Origin: Desulfolithobacter dissulfuricans
GTDB taxonomy: Bacteria; Desulfobacterota; Desulfobulbia; Desulfobulbales; Desulfobulbaceae
Direction: 5' to 3'
Length of the DNA stretch: 64,000 nucleotides
Assembly (NCBI RefSeq): GCF_025998535.1
Contig: NZ_AP024233.1
Coordinates: 3,372,001 to 3,436,000, forward strand
Both the position numbers and the translations under genes were made by a program. A model generated the notes under the pieces. It saw only the letters and a program-made list of their open reading frames with translations, was not told where the DNA came from and ran no database searches. Below are positions 5,100-38,727 of this stretch, one piece after another; position 1 is the first letter of the stretch; each line of letters opens with the position of its first letter.

Positions 5100-5874
5100 A
5101 ATGACTGAGACGGTGCTCCATGTTGGAAATCAGCTTGGACAGAACCAGGGTGATCAGGAGATAGATCAGGGCGATCATGGTATAGGTTTCAAAATAGTTG
5201 AAACTCTCGGAAGCGTACTCCCGACCCCGACGCAGGATATCGGACACAGCGAGAATGGAAACCAGAGAGGTATCCTTCAACAGAGCGATAAACTCGTTGC
5301 CCACCGGAGGCAGGATGGTCCGCCAGGCCTGGGGCAGAATGACATAGGTCATGGTCTGGCGCTGGTTGAAGCCCAGGGAAAGCGAGGCCTCGGTCTGCCC
5401 GAAGTCGATGGACTTGATCCCGGCCCGGAAGACCTCGCCCATGTAGGCGCCATAACAGACCGACATGGCGATCACGGCGGCGACGATATCGGGTACCCGG
5501 ACAAAACGGCCCAGGGCGAAATAGATGTAGAACAGCTGCACCAGCAGCGGTACCCCGCGGATCACCTCCACGTAGAGCGAAGCCATCAGGTTGATAAACC
5601 GGTTCTTGGATATCCGGCCCAGGCCCGTGAGCAGGCCGATGACCATGGCCAGGGAGATGGACATGATGGTCACCTTGAAGGTCACCAGGATGCCGTCAGG
5701 GATGAAACGCAGGATGTCGGCGTACGGATCCGGCTTGACCATGGGGAGGATGACGATCAGCCCGATGGTACCGACAAAGGCTATCCACCAGGCGGACAAC
5801 AATCCCCTGTCTTCCGGCTTGGGAATCGCTGCGCCGTCACCGATTTCAATGACTGTGGGTTCTTGTTCTGCCAT
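5086..5874 (-). CDS. Polar amino acid ABC transporter permease (HisMQ/GlnP family)
   Basis: Inner-membrane channel subunit of 262 residues. After a cytoplasmic tail of about 30 residues there are five to six hydrophobic segments. The EAA loop that docks the ATPase appears as [20 protein letters not shown], preceded by [14 protein letters not shown] and [13 protein letters not shown], both family hallmarks. It lies between the binding protein and the ATPase; a GC-rich hairpin in the 106-base gap upstream may lower its expression relative to the binding protein. Only one permease gene is present, so it presumably forms a homodimer. Confidence 0.92.
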
Positions 5875-5934
5875 TTCAAAAGCTACTGGTTTCCAGGTCC
5901 GAAAGCGACGGAGCCCGGGATTATGAAACGAAAT

Positions 5935-5956
5935 GGCCGGACCTCACGGCCCGGCC
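5935..5956 (-). terminator. Intercistronic hairpin between binding protein and permease genes
   Basis: GGCCGG and CCGGCC pair around a 10-base loop, 24 bases after the binding-protein stop, with only a short T-rich tail in the minus-strand direction. Such hairpins often give partial termination or mRNA protection so that the binding protein is made in excess. Confidence 0.5.
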
Positions 5957-5980
5957 AGGAAACTGCTCGGCAACCAGATA

Positions 5981-6715
5981 TTACTGGCCGATCCACTTCT
6001 TCTTGAGTTCCTCGTCAATACCCTTGGCCTTGACGGCGCGGATACCCTTGTTGATCAGATCCAGCACCTTCTTGTTGCCTTTGCGTACGGCGATACCGTA
6101 ATTCTCCACCGTGCCGGTCTCGATAACCGAGGCGATCTTGAGGGTGTCCTTGTACTTGATCATGGCGTAGTTGGCCGCCACCGGATCGTCACAGACCACG
6201 GCGTCGATACGGCCGACATTGAGATCTTCCATGGCCAGGCCGATCTCATCGTAGGACTTGGGAACCACGCCCTTGGCCGCCTTGATGGCGAAATAACCGG
6301 TGGTCCCGATCTGACCGCCGACCTTCTTGCCCTTGAGATCGGCAAGACTCTTGACCGGCTCGTCCTTGCGGACGATCAGGGCCTGGCGAACGGTGAAATA
6401 GGGCTCGCTGAAATCCATGGCCTTTTTGCGCTCCTCGGTGATGGAGACCGAGGAACAGATGGCATCGTACTTGCCTGCAGCCAGCCCGGCGAAGATACCA
6501 TCCCAGGCGGTGTTCTTGAAGACCGGCTTGAATCCGGCTTCCTTGCCGGCTGCGGTCATGTAATCGATGGAATAGCCGACAAGCTCTTTGTCGCTGTTGA
6601 TGAATTCCATGGGGGGCCAGGTGGCATCGGTGGCAAAAACAATGGTGGTCTCGGCCCAGGCCGATCCGTACATGACAGCCAGCGTCACAAGGGCAAAAAC
6701 AGCGCGTTTCAACAT
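5981..6715 (-). CDS. Amino acid ABC transporter periplasmic substrate-binding protein
   Basis: The ATG at 6715 is chosen because AGGAGG (6721-6726) precedes it and the product then begins with a clean Sec signal peptide, MLKRAVFALVTLAVMYGSAWA, cleaved before ETT. The mature part is a family-3 (SBP_bac_3) binding protein: IVFATDATWPPMEF, GYSIDYM, WDGIFAGLAAGKYDAICSS and the aspartate-containing VCDDPVAANY. This class binds polar or basic amino acids in the periplasm and hands them to the permease. First gene of the three-gene operon; about 245 residues, normal for the family. Exact ligand cannot be read from the sequence. Confidence 0.9.
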   Translation of the reverse strand: MLKRAVFALVTLAVMYGSAWAETTIVFATDATWPPMEFINSDKELVGYSIDYMTAAGKEAGFKPVFKNTAWDGIFAGLAAGKYDAICSSVSITEERKKAMDFSEPYFTVRQALIVRKDEPVKSLADLKGKKVGGQIGTTGYFAIKAAKGVVPKSYDEIGLAMEDLNVGRIDAVVCDDPVAANYAMIKYKDTLKIASVIETGTVENYGIAVRKGNKKVLDLINKGIRAVKAKGIDEELKKKWIGQ

Positions 6716-6995
6716 GGTTTCCTCCTGAAATATGAGTAACAACTGAAAACAACCAGAAACTTCCTCTACCACTCTCCGCCAATCCAGGCAATAAAAACTG
6801 ACCCTGCAGCCTGATCTTTTTCCCTGGTTGAAAAAAACCACCTGATCGGCGCAAACCTTTCCTGCCCAGTGTGGAACCCGGCCAAAAAACCAGATCTTCA
6901 GGCAGGAGAGAGCCCGTTACCGAATATTTGAAAAATTCAAAGAATTCCGGGCAGCCAAGCGCGGTGTTCCAGTCCCGGGATCCCCTTGATTTTTC

Positions 6996-7025
6996 TTGAC
7001 GGTCGCTCGGGCAAACAGGTACTAT
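6996..7025 (+). promoter_or_regulatory. Sigma-70-type promoter for pal
   Basis: TTGACG (6996-7001), 18-base spacer, TACTAT (7020-7025), ending about 50 bases before the pal start. Confidence 0.62.
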
Positions 7026-7075
7026 GACGCTGTTTCAAACGACAGTTCTCCCATTCCCGCATACAAGGAGGTACC

Positions 7076-7708
7076 ATGATGCACCCCTTTCGGATTATCC
7101 CGGCTGTTCTGCTGGGCCTGCTGCTGATGGTGGCCGGTGGTTGCAGCAAGAAAACCATCATGCCTTACCCGACGGGTAACGGTGCCGGTGCCCCGGAGGC
7201 CAAGTCCATCGACTATCCTGCCGGCCAGGAGGCCGGAACCATCACCGAGGAAGATATGGCCGCACCCCAGGTTGATACCCTGGACACCACCACGGCCGCC
7301 GGTAAATCCCTGGGTGGTTTTGCCATCAGCGGTGATCAGAACAGCGAGGAGTACAAGAAACTCCATGGCCGCTCCTCGCCGCAGATGCAGCCCATTTATT
7401 TCAATTTCGACCAGGCGACCATCCGGGCCGACCAGATTCCGCGGCTGGAGGCCAATGCCGCCTACCTGAAGAACAATCCCGGAGTCAAGGTGGTGATCGA
7501 GGGGAACTGCGATGAGCGGGGCACCAACGAGTACAACCTGGCCCTGGGAGAACGGCGGGCCCTGAACGCCAAGAAATACCTGGTGGTTCTGGGGGTTGAG
7601 CCGCAGCGGATCCGGACGGTGAGTTACGGCGAGGAACGGCCCCTGTTCACCGGGGACGACGAGTTCTCCTGGTCCCAGAACCGGCGAGATGATTTTATCC
7701 TTGAGTAA
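7076..7708 (+). CDS. pal: Peptidoglycan-associated lipoprotein Pal (OmpA-like)
   Basis: Outer-membrane lipoprotein that anchors the outer membrane to peptidoglycan with the Tol complex. The N-terminus is a lipoprotein signal with lipobox VAGGC (lipidated Cys about residue 23). The C-terminal OmpA domain shows YFNFDQATIR, GNCDERGTNEYNLALGERRA and QNRRDDF, the peptidoglycan-binding signatures. AAGGAGG at 7065-7071 serves either the ATG at 7076 or the adjacent ATG at 7079, which has the better spacing. No tol genes are present next to it; it is a single-gene unit with its own promoter and terminator. 210 residues, slightly longer than usual because of a linker after the lipobox. Confidence 0.92.
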   Translation: MMHPFRIIPAVLLGLLLMVAGGCSKKTIMPYPTGNGAGAPEAKSIDYPAGQEAGTITEEDMAAPQVDTLDTTTAAGKSLGGFAISGDQNSEEYKKLHGRSSPQMQPIYFNFDQATIRADQIPRLEANAAYLKNNPGVKVVIEGNCDERGTNEYNLALGERRALNAKKYLVVLGVEPQRIRTVSYGEERPLFTGDDEFSWSQNRRDDFILE

Positions 7709-7735
7709 CTGATAGACTTTTCATCTCCTTTCTGT

Positions 7736-7774
7736 AAAGGGAGAAGGCAGCGCGACTGCCTTCTCCCTTTTTTT
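7736..7774 (+). terminator. Rho-independent terminator of pal
   Basis: GGGAGAAGGCAG pairs with CTGCCTTCTCCC around CGCGA, followed by seven T. An A-rich flank extends the stem. Confidence 0.94.
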
Positions 7775-7775
7775 A

Positions 7776-7799
7776 GTTTGCCCGGCATGGCGGGCAAAC
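7776..7799. repeat. Second hairpin, in the upstream exon of the group II intron
   Basis: GTTTGCCCG pairs perfectly with CGGGCAAAC around six bases. It starts one base after the pal terminator and ends about 8 bases before the proposed intron 5' end, so it may be part of the target recognised by the intron. Confidence 0.55.
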
Positions 7800-8503
7800 C
7801 CAGCCTGTGTTAAGCAGGCGTCACCCTGACCAGGGGGAAGACAATCCGAATCGTAAGGGCGTTGCTGGTAACGGCAGGGTCTGAAGGAAGCGATAGGAAG
7901 TGAGCGGCACATAGCGCAAGCGAACCTGATTCGGCGTATCAGGAGGGTAAGCGTCCTAAATAGCGCGAAGCCCGATACCTGGTCAGTCCTGATACGTGAT
8001 TGAGGATGTGGTCGCTCACAGGGAGTTCGCCTTAACCGGGGAAGCCTTGCACTGTTTCCGCATTAAGCGGAAAAAGAGAAGCACAAGGAGAAATCCAAGG
8101 CGGATCGAAGCGGTGTGAGGTGGCAGATGATTCCGTAGTAGTGATGAAATTCCGGCCTGTGAAGCCTGGTAACAGTGTGGAGGATAAAACCGGGATGACC
8201 CAACGGCCTGGTTCGTTGGGGGCAGTTATGAGCCAAAAGCCATATCTGTTGCGAAGGGATGAAGTTTATTTGAAGGTTTTCCGGAATCTATGGACACCTG
8301 GCAGACTGAACACAAGCCGTCCGACGGGACGGGGCACGCTATCGGCGGTATGCCGTGACAGGTCCTCTGCCGATTTTGGCCGTTCATCGGAGTAGATGGG
8401 AGTGTTGATCGTATATTGCCCATGAGGATAGAAAGCGGTCGCGCCCATTGAAGAACCGAAGTCTCCACGTGGAAATAGAGGAAGGGAAACGCAGGACAGG
8501 AGC

Positions 8504-9772
8504 ATGGTTGACGTCTGGTACAGCCTATATGATCGAATGCTGAGCCGGGAGAACCTGGTCAAGGCATTCTACAAGGTGAAATCCTCGAAAGGAGCTGCCG
8601 GTATAGACGGCCAGTCCATCGATGATTTTGCCGGATCACTTGCGACCAATATCGATCATCTCCTGACGGAACTGCAGGACAAGAGCTACCAGCCGCTGGC
8701 CGTGCGACGGGTGGAGATCCCGAAGCCGAACGGCGGGAAACGGCTACTCGGCATACCTGCAGTCCGTGACCGTGTGGTACAGCAGGCCCTGCTGGATATA
8801 CTTCAACCAATATTTGACCGCGATTTCCATCCGTCGAGCTACGGCTACCGTCCTGGTCGGAGTTGTCACCAGGCAATCAGCAAAGCCACGATGTTCATCC
8901 GGACGTACGAGCGGAAATGGGTAGTGGACATGGATCTGTCGAAATGCTTCGACACGTTGAACCATGACCTGATCCTTGCCTCGTTCCGTCGCCGGGTCAG
9001 CGATGGAAGTATTCTTGGTCTGCTGGAGAAGTTTTTGAAAAGCGGTGTTCTGACAGGAGATGGTTGGCAGGCCAGCGAGGTCGGCAGTCCGCAGGGCGGA
9101 GTTATCAGCCCGTTGATTGCCAACGTATACCTTGATTCCTTCGATCAGTTTATGAAGAATCGTGGCCACCGCATCGTCCGCTATGCGGACGACATCCTGA
9201 TCCTGTGCCAGTCAAAGAGCGCAGCCGAAAATGCACTGAACCAGGCCAGTCGTTATCTTGAAGAAGAACTGCTGTTGACCGTCAACCAGGAAAAGACCCA
9301 TATAAGCCACAGCCTCAAAGGGATTAAATTTCTTGGAGTTTGTATCCACTCCGTGATGACCCGAATACAGCGAGGCAAGGTGAGGGCCTTCAAGGCAAAG
9401 GTCAAGGCGATGACCCGGCGTAACTCCCCGGTGAACCTTGAGAAGGTGATAGCCGACCTCAACCGGTTGCTGAGGGGTTTTGCCAACTACTTTCGGATAG
9501 CGAACTGCAAGGGTGAGTTTTCTCGGCTGATGAGGTGGATCAGAAGACGGCTGCGTGCTGTTCAGTTGAAGCTGTGGAAAAAGCCGTGCAGGCTACACCG
9601 CAGACTGAGACAGCTGGGCTATAGAGGAGAGTTCAAAAGTATCAAGATGAACTCCTGGGCCAATGCAGCAAGTCCACTGAGCCATTATGCCCTTCCCAAC
9701 AGCTGCCTGCATGGGGAAATGGGGCTCTTTGACCTCGCATCTGTACAGACCGGAATTTCTGTTTCAGTATGA
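8504..9772 (+). CDS. Group II intron reverse transcriptase/maturase
   Basis: Intron-encoded protein of 422 residues that helps splicing and copies the intron into DNA. RT blocks are visible: KGAAGIDGQS, YQPLAVRRVEIPKPNGGKR, LGIPAVRDRVVQQAL, SSYGYRPGRSCHQAI, the catalytic RYADDILIL (YADD near residues 227-230) and GSPQGGVISPLIANVYL. The maturase X domain follows (about 320-400, including RRLRQLGY and HYALPN). There is no C-terminal HNH endonuclease, so target use probably depends on nicks or replication forks. AGGAG lies a few bases upstream of the ATG. It looks intact. Confidence 0.95.
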   Translation: MVDVWYSLYDRMLSRENLVKAFYKVKSSKGAAGIDGQSIDDFAGSLATNIDHLLTELQDKSYQPLAVRRVEIPKPNGGKRLLGIPAVRDRVVQQALLDILQPIFDRDFHPSSYGYRPGRSCHQAISKATMFIRTYERKWVVDMDLSKCFDTLNHDLILASFRRRVSDGSILGLLEKFLKSGVLTGDGWQASEVGSPQGGVISPLIANVYLDSFDQFMKNRGHRIVRYADDILILCQSKSAAENALNQASRYLEEELLLTVNQEKTHISHSLKGIKFLGVCIHSVMTRIQRGKVRAFKAKVKAMTRRNSPVNLEKVIADLNRLLRGFANYFRIANCKGEFSRLMRWIRRRLRAVQLKLWKKPCRLHRRLRQLGYRGEFKSIKMNSWANAASPLSHYALPNSCLHGEMGLFDLASVQTGISVSV

Positions 9773-35718: not shown

Positions 35719-36990
35719 TCACATGGGTACGATCAGCTTATTGCTGTCCTCGTTCCAGGTAACGACCACATACCACAGGGCCATGACAAGTCCGATAAGA
35801 AGCAGGGTCGGTCCGTATCCCATGACATCGGGCAGGTAGACATACTTTCCGAGAACACCGTCGGCCTCGAAATCCATATCCTTGAACCAGGCGGTCATAA
35901 TGGAGTTGGAGATACCGAAGAAAGGTACCACCAGCCACAGTTTGATCTGCCCTTCACCCACACGCCACAGGGTTCCGGAACCGCAACCACCGGCAAACAT
36001 GGCACCGAGACCGAAAATAAAACCACCGACAACGCCGCCCCAGCCAAAGGTGCCGCGGACATAGTTCGCGGGATCGAGTACCGGATCGCCATCAAAACGC
36101 ATGGCCACACCATACTTGAGAACAGCAGCGCCAACGGCAACAATAAAAATGGACAGAGCAACGGATTTCGCCAGGGTACAGTCACCGGTCATATGCGGCT
36201 CCCTGAAACCCTGAACCATGCACCAGCGGCCGCGCTGCATGGCATAACCCAGGCCGGCGGATATGATCAGGATACCGGAAAGGGAGTTGATGTAATCGCT
36301 GTAGTCATCTCCGTCGAAACTGGTGTAGTTGTAGGCGCCCCAGACCAGAACAGCCAGAGCGATGAGACCGAGGATGAACTGGACCGCCATGGGAAATTCA
36401 ATGGTCTTGGCACCACCGGATCCCCAGGTTATGTATTCCATTTCCTTGTACAACAACCACAGTCCAAGTACGACACCAAGCACAAGCCCGAGCCACATGG
36501 CAAAACCGTTGGCAGCCAGGTTACCGATGGCATTGTACATGCCACCTACATTACAACCGCCTGCCAGGGCTGACCCGATACCCATCAGGATACCGGCTAT
36601 AACCGCCTTGACCAGCTCACGTATCGGGGGGAAGCGCAGAGCAAACTGACCGCCCAGACAGGCGGAAAGAAAGGCACCACCGACAAAGCCAAGACCGATG
36701 ACCGAGCCGGAATTGTACCATATGGACTTGGTAAGCACCCTGCTGCCTTCATCATTAATAAAACCGACGAGTTCCTGCATGTCGGTGTCCGAATACCATC
36801 CCACCATGTAGAGTATCCAGTCACCCCAGTTGCGGATGGCGCCAACCGCACCCCAGGGCCTCCACCAGGCCATGATCATGACACTCAGAAAGGCGACAAT
36901 GATACCTGTGACGGTGGCATTCCACTCATCCTTACAGAGTACCTTATACAACTGCTTGATTTTCTGAGCAAACAAGCTCTCGCTACTCAT
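35719..36990 (-). CDS. YeeE/YedE-family sulfur transporter (YTD cluster)
   Basis: Membrane protein of 423 residues with about ten helices. GGCNVGGMYNAIG, RGRWCMVQGF and FAGGCGSGTLWRVGEG hold the conserved Cys residues that, in the thiosulfate transporter TsuA/YeeE, relay thiosulfate through the membrane. It faces tusA, dsrE and two small genes across a 404-base control region. This gene set (YedE-like, TusA, DsrE-like and two hypotheticals) has been described as the YTD cluster characteristic of sulfur-disproportionating bacteria. Its probable role is import of thiosulfate or another sulfane-sulfur compound and delivery to TusA. Confidence 0.9.
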   Translation of the reverse strand: MSSESLFAQKIKQLYKVLCKDEWNATVTGIIVAFLSVMIMAWWRPWGAVGAIRNWGDWILYMVGWYSDTDMQELVGFINDEGSRVLTKSIWYNSGSVIGLGFVGGAFLSACLGGQFALRFPPIRELVKAVIAGILMGIGSALAGGCNVGGMYNAIGNLAANGFAMWLGLVLGVVLGLWLLYKEMEYITWGSGGAKTIEFPMAVQFILGLIALAVLVWGAYNYTSFDGDDYSDYINSLSGILIISAGLGYAMQRGRWCMVQGFREPHMTGDCTLAKSVALSIFIVAVGAAVLKYGVAMRFDGDPVLDPANYVRGTFGWGGVVGGFIFGLGAMFAGGCGSGTLWRVGEGQIKLWLVVPFFGISNSIMTAWFKDMDFEADGVLGKYVYLPDVMGYGPTLLLIGLVMALWYVVVTWNEDSNKLIVPM

Positions 36991-37116
36991 AAACTCCCCT
37001 CCTCTCTGTTCCTTGAATTTCCGATGAAGGCCGAAGCGCTCCGGGAACCTGAAACCCCTTTCAGCTCATCGTTTTTCCGACATGAGATCCTCTCAATATT
37101 CTCTTCCTCGCGTAAT

Positions 37117-37145
37117 TCTTTACCGTTGCCCACTATATTTGTCAA
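37117..37145 (-). promoter_or_regulatory. Promoter of the yedE-like gene
   Basis: Minus-strand TTGACA (37140-37145), 17-base spacer, TAAAGA (37117-37122), about 125 bases before the start codon. Confidence 0.55.
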
Positions 37146-37230
37146 GGTCGTTGACCATTCAGGCGGCAAAGAGCCACTTTTTTATTTAATTTTCTTTAAA
37201 GGAATTAATACGTTAAGGCCAATTACAATT

Positions 37231-37246
37231 TTGAATCACGATTCAA
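37231..37246. promoter_or_regulatory. Operator palindrome in the divergent YTD control region
   Basis: TTGAATCACGATTCAA: perfect 6-base arms around CACG, 7 bases upstream of the tusA -35 box. Position suggests an activator site for tusA or a regulator serving both directions. Confidence 0.6.
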
Positions 37247-37253
37247 TTATAAC

Positions 37254-37282
37254 TTGACAGACAAAGTGGTTTTCTGTATACA
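37254..37282 (+). promoter_or_regulatory. Strong sigma-70 promoter of tusA operon
   Basis: Consensus TTGACA (37254-37259), 17-base spacer, TATACA (37277-37282). It leaves an untranslated leader of about 105 bases before tusA. Confidence 0.85.
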
Positions 37283-37394
37283 AAGCAATGCCGTATTATC
37301 TCTGCAGTCTTTCCGGGGAACAGCATACGGCAATTCAATGAAAACATTCCTGTTTTCATCCCTTTCATCATTATTTCTTAGGTAGGAGGATCAA

Positions 37395-37652
37395 ATGAGT
37401 GATTTCAAAGTAGCTCCTGATGGACTGGAGGTAGCAGCAGTACTGGATGCCAAGGGCCTGAGCTGTCCCATGCCCCTGCTTCGCACTAAGAAGGAAATCG
37501 GCAAACTGAAGTCCGGGGAAATTCTGCAGGTCGATGGTACCGATCCAGGTTCCCGTAACGACATACCTGGCTGGTGTGAGCGTGCGGGCCACGAGTATCT
37601 GGGCGAGAAGGAAGAGTCCGGCTACATCAGCTTCTTTATCAAAAAAGGCTGA
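37395..37652 (+). CDS. tusA: TusA-family sulfur carrier protein (YTD cluster)
   Basis: 85-residue sulfur-transfer protein. DAKGLSCPMPLLRTKKEI holds the persulfide-forming Cys24 in the invariant CPxP motif. Residues 1-15 form a short N-terminal extension compared with E. coli TusA. GGAGGA precedes the ATG. In this cluster it likely receives sulfane sulfur from the YedE-like importer or DsrE and delivers it to cytoplasmic sulfur metabolism. First of four closely spaced genes with a clear promoter. Confidence 0.95.
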   Translation: MSDFKVAPDGLEVAAVLDAKGLSCPMPLLRTKKEIGKLKSGEILQVDGTDPGSRNDIPGWCERAGHEYLGEKEESGYISFFIKKG

Positions 37653-37692
37653 TTCCTTACGCTGTTAACTTCACCCAAGGAGGAAAAAGCCA

Positions 37693-38025
37693 ATGGCTGC
37701 TGACCCGAATAAACTCGGTATATTTGTTACCTCTCCGCAGAATATGCGGCATATTCTCGGCCTCACCAAGGCTGCAAAACGTGCCGGAAAGAAGGTTATG
37801 GTATTTTTTACCTACAAATCCATCCATCTGACCAAGAGCCCTGAATTTGTCGAACTTTCCGAACTCATCGATGTAGAGGATCTTGCAATCTGCGCTGACA
37901 GCTACACCTGTGAGGGCTATGACACGGTCAAAGATATTCCCCGTGGTCTCATCGACAAGCAGATGCGTACGCAGGCCTTCCATGGCGCCATTCTTGAAGA
38001 ATGCGGCAAGTACATCGTAATGTAA
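37693..38025 (+). CDS. DsrE-like sulfur-transfer protein (YTD cluster)
   Basis: 110 residues with DsrE/F fold: GIFVTSPQNMRHILGLTKAAKRAGKK, then KVMVFFTYKSIHL, and Cys residues in LAICADSYTCEGYD where DsrE proteins carry the reactive Cys. AAGGAGG upstream. It follows tusA by 40 bases and probably exchanges persulfide with it. It is distinct from the DsrE-like protein at 12931, which has a CRAC motif. Soluble and cytoplasmic. Confidence 0.88.
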   Translation: MAADPNKLGIFVTSPQNMRHILGLTKAAKRAGKKVMVFFTYKSIHLTKSPEFVELSELIDVEDLAICADSYTCEGYDTVKDIPRGLIDKQMRTQAFHGAILEECGKYIVM

Positions 38026-38035
38026 GGAGAGAACA

Positions 38036-38383
38036 ATGGAATCTTTGAAAGTATACATCCTGATTGCCAACCGGACCTACAACGACGGCATCCGTTCCGG
38101 ACTGGGTCTTGCGGTTGAAAATCATTATGCCTATCCGGTTGTCATGAATGGTGAGTTCCCAACCATGTCCGAGTACATGTCCGAGAATATCGCCTGGATC
38201 TATGATATGGAAGGCGAAGTCCTGACCTGCGGTGCCCCTGCTCCTGAAAACCTGCCCGAGGGTGTGGAGTTCAAGGAAGTAAGCCTTGAGGAGCTTGGAG
38301 AGAGAATGCGGGAAGCCGATGTAATCATTCCCTACGGCCTGCCCAAGCAAACCAACGAACCGCCGCCAGCCTGTGCTGAATAG
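38036..38383 (+). CDS. Hypothetical protein of the YTD cluster (115 aa)
   Basis: Not recognised as a named family. Starts 10 bases after the DsrE-like gene with AAGGAGAG. The sequence alternates strands and helices (VYILIANRTYNDGIRSGLGL, AYPVVMNGEFP, IAWIYDME, GVEFKEVSLEEL) in a way that recalls the DsrE/DsrF alpha-beta fold, with a single internal Cys (LTCGAPAP) and one near the C-terminus (PPACAE). Likely one of the two conserved hypotheticals of the YTD set; may form a hetero-oligomer with the DsrE-like protein, by analogy with DsrEFH. Confidence 0.8.
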   Translation: MESLKVYILIANRTYNDGIRSGLGLAVENHYAYPVVMNGEFPTMSEYMSENIAWIYDMEGEVLTCGAPAPENLPEGVEFKEVSLEELGERMREADVIIPYGLPKQTNEPPPACAE

Positions 38384-38398
38384 GAAAGGAGACCAGCC

Positions 38399-38590
38399 AT
38401 GAGTGATGAAGCAAAAATGAAGATCCTGCAGGTATACCGGTCCGAGCCCAATGACGATGTCAAAAAGCTGGTTGAGATCCTCAACCGCGACCGGGACGCC
38501 GATGAGTTCAAACTCTATATTGATAATCCCAATTACGATATCCTGGTACAGAAGATTTTTGCCGCAGATAAAACCGTCTGCTGGTGGTAA
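38399..38590 (+). CDS. Small hypothetical protein of the YTD cluster (63 aa)
   Basis: AAAGGAG precedes the ATG, 15 bases after the previous gene. The product MSDEAKMKILQVYRSEPNDD... is charged and helical, ending in KTVCWW with one Cys three residues from the C-terminus, a placement that recalls DsrH/TusB, whose reactive Cys lies near the end; however it is shorter (63 against about 95 residues) and similarity is weak. Last gene of the tusA unit, closed by a terminator. Confidence 0.78.
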   Translation: MSDEAKMKILQVYRSEPNDDVKKLVEILNRDRDADEFKLYIDNPNYDILVQKIFAADKTVCWW

Positions 38591-38620
38591 TCTACCAGAG
38601 AAACAGATGTTGTATGCAGA

Positions 38621-38653
38621 AAAAACCTCTGTCCAGGCGGCAGGGGTTTTTTT
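38621..38653 (+). terminator. Rho-independent terminator of the tusA operon
   Basis: AACCTCTG pairs with CAGGGGTT (one G-T pair) around nine bases, preceded by A5 and followed by T run to 38653. Confidence 0.85.
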
Positions 38654-38727
38654 GTGTCATTCTTCGATCATGAAAAGGCCCGGGCAGTGGGCCTGATCCC
38701 CTCCTTTTTTACCCCTGCCTATTCCTG

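Follow-up and report, generated by a model that had tools for sequence, protein, structure and literature searches.

The DNA examined in this work is a stretch of 64,000 nucleotides (referred to as the window) from the chromosome of Desulfolithobacter dissulfuricans GF1T (contig NZ_AP024233.1, positions 3,372,001 to 3,436,000). The system in question is the YTD sulfur gene cluster, which lies at positions 35719-38590 of the window, together with a palindrome in its intergenic region. The features of this locus, with lengths in amino acids (aa), are the following:

35719-36990, minus strand: yedE/yeeE-like permease for sulfur compounds (Sulf_transp), 423 aa, called from its open reading frame (ORF) and its Pfam match.
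37232-37245, no strand assigned: palindrome TGAATCACGATTCA in the yedE-tusA intergenic region, a putative operator common to dsrA and the dsrM operon.
37395-37652, plus strand: tusA, sulfur carrier, 85 aa, in which Cys24 is the expected sulfane-sulfur site.
37693-38025, plus strand: dsrE type II (dsrE-like), 110 aa, with active-site Cys67.
38036-38383, plus strand: dsrF type II (conserved hypothetical protein, CHP), 115 aa.
38399-38590, plus strand: dsrH type II (CHP), 63 aa, with a C-terminal [C/S]WW motif, here CWW.
38620-38654, plus strand: stem-loop followed by a T run, a likely intrinsic terminator of the tusA-dsrEFH operon, positioned by eye.

The yedE-like gene is read leftward and the tusA, dsrE-like, 115-aa and 63-aa genes are read rightward, with a 404-bp intergenic region between them, and purine stretches that by eye resemble ribosome-binding sites precede all four rightward genes. 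All five ORFs were found where a preliminary description, made from the letters of this DNA alone, had placed them. The YedE protein matched the Pfam Sulf_transp model with an E value of 3.4e-45 and TusA matched PF01206 with an E value of 9.1e-25; for the DsrE-like, 115-aa and 63-aa proteins no Pfam or NCBIfam model scored above its cut-off. A search of the genome with Pfam DsrE (PF02635) detected four other places, two of them over the cut-off, and the DsrE of the cluster was not found by it, while the Pfam DsrH model (PF04077) gave no match in the genome at E up to 1. The GF1T genome also encodes DsrC, dsrA (Pfam NIR_SIR) and ATP sulfurylase.

This cluster is already known and characterized, including in GF1T, and the preliminary description was correct in recognizing it as the YTD cluster, as the yedE-like, tusA, dsrE-like and two or three conserved hypothetical genes that define the latter are present together. 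The name is due to Umezawa et al. 2020 (cited in PMC9751629), and the GF1T genes have been published as GF1_30690-30730. The source organism has been reported to disproportionate elemental sulfur (S0), thiosulfate and tetrathionate with ferrihydrite. The comparison of disproportionation with sulfate reduction that had been proposed as a check is likewise in print, in the form of proteomic data in which all five YTD proteins showed higher abundance during thiosulfate disproportionation than during sulfate reduction (PMC9751629).

The DsrE-like protein and the two "hypotheticals" have been named DsrEFH type II, for which a 1:1:1 complex of the Candidatus Electronema aureum proteins has been reported (PMC13293266), and the YTD DsrE-like, Chp1 and Chp2 proteins have been modelled as a DsrEFH-like double heterotrimer (PMC13047784). 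In mass-spectrometric experiments in vitro, the TusA protein of E. aureum persulfidated DsrE but not its Cys67Ser variant, and DsrEFH type II passed sulfur on to DsrC (PMC13293266). The suggestion of the preliminary description that the four small proteins could form a TusA plus DsrEFH-like relay was therefore right in outline, having been published independently, and its proposed interaction with TusA is represented in vitro by this transfer to the orthologous complex. In GF1T, contiguous dsrE-dsrF-dsrH genes are syntenic with tusA and yeeE/yedE, as in other DsrEFH type II loci, and the predicted DsrE carries a Cys at residue 67. Relative to the locus of Ca. Electronema aureum GS (L097), the organism of the published biochemistry, which served as the reference, the sequence identities are 67% for YedE, 83.5% for TusA, 74.5% for DsrE, 82.6% for the 115-aa DsrF and 82.0% for DsrH (residues 3-63).

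Complex formation and TusA-DsrE-DsrC transfer are thus shown for the E. aureum orthologues and, by analogy with them, the cluster is very probably a YTD/DsrEFH type II module that feeds a TusA-DsrE-DsrC sulfur relay in GF1T. In such a relay, YedE would carry a sulfur compound across the membrane (either sulfane sulfur or thiosulfate), and Cys24 of TusA would take up sulfane sulfur and pass it to Cys67 of DsrE in a DsrE-DsrF-DsrH heterotrimer. The heterotrimer would hand the sulfur to DsrC, and the DsrC-bound sulfur could then be oxidized to sulfite by reductive-type DsrAB working in reverse. The module would most likely feed the oxidative branch of sulfur/thiosulfate disproportionation in GF1T, a flux direction that in the cell is presumed.

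The distribution of the cluster and the conservation of its residues were examined in named YTD loci that were fetched with a DsrE profile (213 confirmed, of which the best 80 were kept for the counts). Among these 80, tusA and dsrE were present in all, the 115-aa gene in 79 and a complete 63-aa gene in 77. Because the gene set is kept in the named loci and a homologue of the 115-aa protein was found in 52 of the 57 genomes searched (own included), the conservation of the cluster is far beyond chance. Cys24 of TusA and Cys67 of DsrE are Cys in 80/80 named loci, and the latter also in all 18 rows of an alignment (A1) in which identity extends down to 55%; Cys146, Cys257 and Cys336 of YedE are kept in 74/74 named loci aligned there. 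The 63-aa protein ends in CWW in 54 and in SWW in 23 of 77 named loci, with WW in 77/77, so that its Cys, the only one in the protein (residue 61), is replaceable and the Trp pair is invariant. The preliminary description had likened the Cys of CWW to a C-terminal Cys of DsrH/TusB, and this likeness does not hold. In canonical DsrH it is Cys20 that is conserved, a residue that is not C-terminal and that the DsrH-like proteins of type II lack (PMC13047784), and a role of the C-terminal Cys as a DsrH-type catalytic residue is rejected in view of the Ser found in 23/77 loci. A second candidate is Cys113, which stands in the tail that ends the 115-aa protein and is Cys in 79/79 close loci (L053-L132); the tail is missing from 11/11 divergent relatives read (L023-L033), and this residue is at most a feature of a subfamily rather than a universal second relay site. 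The persulfidation of DsrF seen in E. aureum was ascribed by the authors to a nonspecific, exposed Cys (PMC13293266).

The AlphaFold2 model of the 115-aa protein (42 sequences) had a predicted local distance difference test (pLDDT) score of 85.9. Its two top Foldseek matches were 2hy5_B of DsrEFH (E 1.5e-3) and 2d1p_B of TusBCD (E 4.5e-3). In VIA-align the nine best rows had Z of 7.8-9.7 over 91-100 residues, with root-mean-square deviations of 2.7-3.5, and the next row had Z 5.9. Among these nine, five bear the titles DsrE, DsrE/DsrF-like, DsrEFH or TusBCD. The remaining four are YchN, itself a DsrE-family protein, a designed cage and two proteins for which no function is named. The model supports a DsrE/F/H fold class for the 115-aa protein, within which DsrF is not picked out over DsrE or DsrH. 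The expectation that structure prediction would relate the two hypothetical proteins to DsrF and DsrH was thus borne out for the 115-aa protein as to its fold class. The 63-aa protein gave a confident model (pLDDT 89.3) that matched only unrelated chains with Z up to 5.1, and its identity as DsrH therefore rests on the published papers.

A number of observations weigh against the relay assignment. The biochemistry comes from orthologues and not from the GF1T proteins. In E. aureum the Cys67Ser variant also transferred sulfur to DsrC, which the authors credit to other cysteines, TusA-DsrC transfer took place in vitro also without DsrEFH, and the proteins were not persulfidated by thiosulfate (PMC13293266). 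As to structure, no Foldseek match of the 115-aa model reached E 0.001, and the fold comparison is not specific for DsrF: the first Foldseek match is chain B of 2hy5, presumably DsrF, and the best 2hy5 chain in VIA-align is chain C, presumably DsrH. When sequence profiles were compared with the PDB, the DsrE-like profile gave a single weak match of the DsrE/F-like kind (2qs7, E 0.74), which ranked behind an unrelated one (E 0.21), and those of the 115-aa and 63-aa proteins gave no Dsr match. For the 63-aa model no DsrH chain was seen among the 50 rows shown per program (Foldseek, VIA-align), an absence that is no evidence against its published assignment as DsrH.

The preliminary description had also called the cluster a marker of sulfur disproportionation, and the literature is divided on this point. 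The cluster could be a device specific for disproportionation and diagnostic of that metabolism, as suggested by the higher abundance of all five proteins during thiosulfate disproportionation (PMC9751629) and by a 2026 comparative study that ranks YTD, with MOLY, as the best marker candidates in Desulfobacterota and Nitrospirota (PMC12998232). However, dsrEFH type II is present in only 25 of the 63 disproportionators in culture, 35 of the 46 characterized carriers reduce sulfate or sulfite (14 of these 35 disproportionate as well), and cable bacteria, which are reported sulfide oxidizers, carry the cluster (PMC13293266). The occurrence of the 115-aa gene in 52/57 genomes (own included) would also tell against a diagnostic role if not all of these organisms disproportionate. 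An exclusive role in disproportionation is in our judgement unlikely, and the status of the cluster as a best-ranked candidate marker stands beside its presence in many sulfate reducers. DsrEFH type II genes have been recorded in 985 of 202,601 genomes and argued to indicate a capacity for sulfur oxidation rather than disproportionation (PMC13293266). DsrEFH type II may mark sulfate reducers that are also able to oxidize sulfur, a case that is already in print.

The likeness of the permease to other transporters bears on a further explanation, proposed in PMC13047784, in which YedE and TusA constitute a thiosulfate uptake and decomposition pair of the YeeE/YeeD type and DsrEFH type II just accepts its products. 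This is compatible with the partial match of YedE to TsuA/YeeE models and with the biochemistry of Spirochaeta YeeE/YeeD as cited in that paper. However, YedE scores far below the TsuA cut-offs, TusA fits the PRK00299 TusA model much better than the YeeD model (E 2.5e-16 versus 9.1e-4, both under cut-offs), and thiosulfate failed to load the proteins of E. aureum (PMC13293266), so that we hold this explanation to be somewhat unlikely.

The yedE-tusA region of GF1T carries the palindrome TTGAATCACGATTCAA, which is the only sequence in the genome to match its 7-2-7 pattern exactly. Its core, TGAAT-N4-ATTCA, occurs 10 times in the genome, compared with 1.35 occurrences expected from base composition and none for a reversed control. 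Its conservation was examined at three promoters. For dsrA (L187-L216) and for the dsrM operon (L141-L170) the sets comprise the 30 best loci per search, own genome included; the sets contain related genomes, the differently sourced YTD loci partly overlap, and the counts are not independent events. A divergent yedE is present in 50 of the 80 named YTD loci, and in these the exact core was found in 24/50 and a site at 9/10 bases in 33/50, compared with 0.24% and 3.5%, respectively, in shuffles of these regions. The exact YTD sites lie 116-191 bases before tusA. In a second YTD set of 30 genomes (own included), drawn from the search with the 115-aa protein, 12 had the exact core no more than 350 bases from tusA. 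Among the 24 loci with a co-directional upstream yedE, the core was found in none within 700 bases of tusA, a stretch that is mostly yedE itself, the region upstream of yedE not being tested, and among loci with no yedE match it was found within this distance in 2/6. Upstream of dsrA the exact core is present in 21/30 loci (shuffles 0.07%), and it is present in 22/30 loci (shuffles 0.17%) upstream of an RsbRD gene that is followed by dsrM in 30/30. Among all 13,312 five-base inverted-repeat patterns with gaps of 0-12, TGAAT-N4-ATTCA ranks first in all three promoter sets, and the palindrome is well supported as a conserved element.

The joint presence of the site was assessed by Fisher tests on genomes with both promoters, kinship being ignored. 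At 9/10 bases these gave p = 9e-6 for the pair dsrM-dsrA and p = 0.011 when YTD was paired with either; for exact sites the values were 4e-5 for dsrM-dsrA and 0.003 for YTD-dsrA, while YTD-dsrM reached only 0.057. Two genera, g9 and g14, represented by 4 and 3 genomes, have no site even at 9/10 bases at the dsrM operon and dsrA (7/7) or at YTD (6/6 tested), whereas outside them a site at 9/10 bases or better is found at the dsrM operon in 23/23 and at dsrA in 22/23. Genus g9 includes E. aureum, as its locus L010 does not differ from L097 over 3,345 bases. For g14 the best named-species locus belongs to Ca. Electrothrix gigas (L104), with 78-81% over some 2.1 kb. Judged by these matches, g9 and g14 are probably both cable bacteria, and the absence of the site in them may reflect a single loss. 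Since four genomes (G005, G007, G016 and G022) lack the YTD site yet keep that of the dsrM operon, YTD is the loosest member.

These observations also bear on a third alternative, in which the cluster would be a relay of the TusBCD kind that serves either the 2-thiolation of tRNA or sulfur assimilation in general. The match of the 115-aa model to 2d1p_B agrees with it, but the linkage to a permease, the higher abundance in one dissimilatory growth mode, the transfer of sulfur to DsrC by the E. aureum orthologue (PMC13293266) and the palindrome common to the YTD, dsrA and dsrM-operon promoters in many relatives all speak against it, and we consider it very improbable.

With regard to the factor that may bind the palindrome, its operator geometry had led us to suspect an ArsR/SmtB-type repressor. 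Operators of this type are described as 12-2-12 repeats with TGA...TCA cores (PMC8790569). The GF1T genome has 13 PF01022 matches; 12 of these loci contain no site at 9/10 bases or better and one (L178) has a site several hundred bases away, and such a repressor is thus not supported. By analogy with the sulP clusters of Desulfobacteraceae (PMC11887813), a TetR-type factor would fit as well. The core had no exact-string match in the open-licence literature, by which its absence from print is not shown, and the main texts of the three 2026 YTD papers do not contain the words "promoter", "repressor" or "regulon"; the shared palindrome is possibly new relative to the literature.

As a tentative proposal, to which we give somewhat less than an even chance, YTD/DsrEFH type II, dsrAB and dsrMKJOP would form one sulfur-energy regulon across the Desulfobulbales, through a putative TGAAT-N4-ATTCA-binding factor not yet described for these genes, and cable bacteria would have lost this control at the three promoters alike. 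If this is true, a shared operator would, in free-living Desulfobulbales, connect the relay with the central dsr genes, and the lost control would let cable bacteria run the sulfate-reduction pathway permanently for sulfide oxidation. The coordinated absence of the site in these bacteria would then offer a simple explanation, open to testing, for the way in which a reductive pathway came to serve sulfide oxidation.

The ten core sites of the GF1T genome, with neighbours named from Pfam matches and by eye, are located as follows:

In the YTD yedE-tusA intergenic region.
Before dsrA.
Upstream of an RsbRD-domain gene, which is followed by a dsrM-like gene and ORFs resembling dsrKJOP.
Between a PAS-domain gene and an Fe-S/cytochrome c7 pair.
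Upstream of a torD-like/molybdopterin oxidoreductase pair.
A short way before the probable start of a class III cytochrome c.
In the frame that encodes a DHH/DHHA2 protein, at its 5' end.
Three sites without an evident role in a promoter: near ftsH-like and nrfD-like genes, at the end of a PP-loop ORF and inside an aminotransferase ORF.

The torD-molybdopterin oxidoreductase operon was considered as a member of the regulon and rejected, as the core is upstream of it in 2/19 loci only, GF1T being one. Of the two sat loci of GF1T, the first (L185) has one 9/10 site and the second (L186) has none at this level, and none was found in the locus of dsrC (L184) either. The PAS-domain gene beside its core site (L133:5535-7933; G000 ~1,079,034-1,081,432) seems to be split, with overlapping ORFs at 7136-7933 and 5535-7403 that may reflect either a frameshift or two genes. 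A second TusA domain is encoded within an open frame of 243 codons (L002; G000 3,006,147-3,006,347) and lies about 2.7 kb from the palindrome site of the dsrM operon, with a weak DsrE-like match (E 0.22; L037, 3,005,752) close to it, and this frame may encode a YedF-type protein. Separately, an ArsR-family helix-turn-helix gene and a second DsrE-family gene share a strand and lie within 1 kb of each other (L178/L035; G000 649,633-650,769), and the two are possibly a sulfane-sulfur responsive pair.

Around the cluster itself, the terminator region (38600-38665) folds with a minimum free energy of -21.7 kcal/mol (z -2.84); the stem-loop at about 38620-38654 was not among the output of the consensus scan. 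A sigma-70-like sequence, TTGACA-N17-TATACA, seen by eye at 37254-37282, was absent from the list of that scan and is given no weight. Upstream of the cluster, the window contains a molybdopterin oxidoreductase ORF and nuo-like ORFs (named by eye). On the single circular chromosome of 3,596,428 bases, GF1_30490 (PhsA-1) and GF1_30520 (NADH-quinone oxidoreductase subunit B) precede GF1_30690-30730 (PMC9751629). Reverse transcriptase ORFs of the group II intron type were noted by eye in the window (8504-9772) and at L133:10769-12001, L138:3-1073 and L139:3703-5028, and a group II intron seems to have spread within the genome.

Among known systems, the HcpR regulons of sulfate reducers are similar in having a palindromic operator before sulfate-reduction genes, but the HcpR consensus is TTGTGAN6TCACAA or ATTTGACC-N2-GGTCAAAT, in contrast to the TGAAT-N4-ATTCA before dsrA, the dsrM operon and YTD, and DsrAB is not in the predicted HcpR regulon of Desulfovibrio (PMC545781). 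The repressor of the TetR type that is reported for sulP clusters (sulfate uptake) also resembles the present case, in a 16-bp palindromic operator and in the sulfate-metabolism genes of Desulfobacterota; it belongs to sulP clusters of another family and, compared by description only, its site may or may not be the same (PMC11887813). With canonical DsrEFH (type I, Allochromatium vinosum) and TusBCD (Escherichia coli), the cluster shares the fold class of the 115-aa protein and the active-site Cys of DsrE. However, its proteins have no PF02635 or PF04077 match and, in place of a canonical DsrH with Cys20, the H subunit has 63 aa with its only Cys at 61. The YTD cluster reported for GF1T (PMC9751629) is the same cluster, with the same gene content and order and no difference seen, Chp1 and Chp2 being the names used in that paper for the small proteins. 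Lastly, the DsrEFH type II locus of E. aureum (PMC13293266) differs in that its intergenic region is without TGAAT-N4-ATTCA, whereas GF1T has the palindrome; in its five orthologous genes, the retention of Cys67 and the divergent yedE, it is like that of GF1T.

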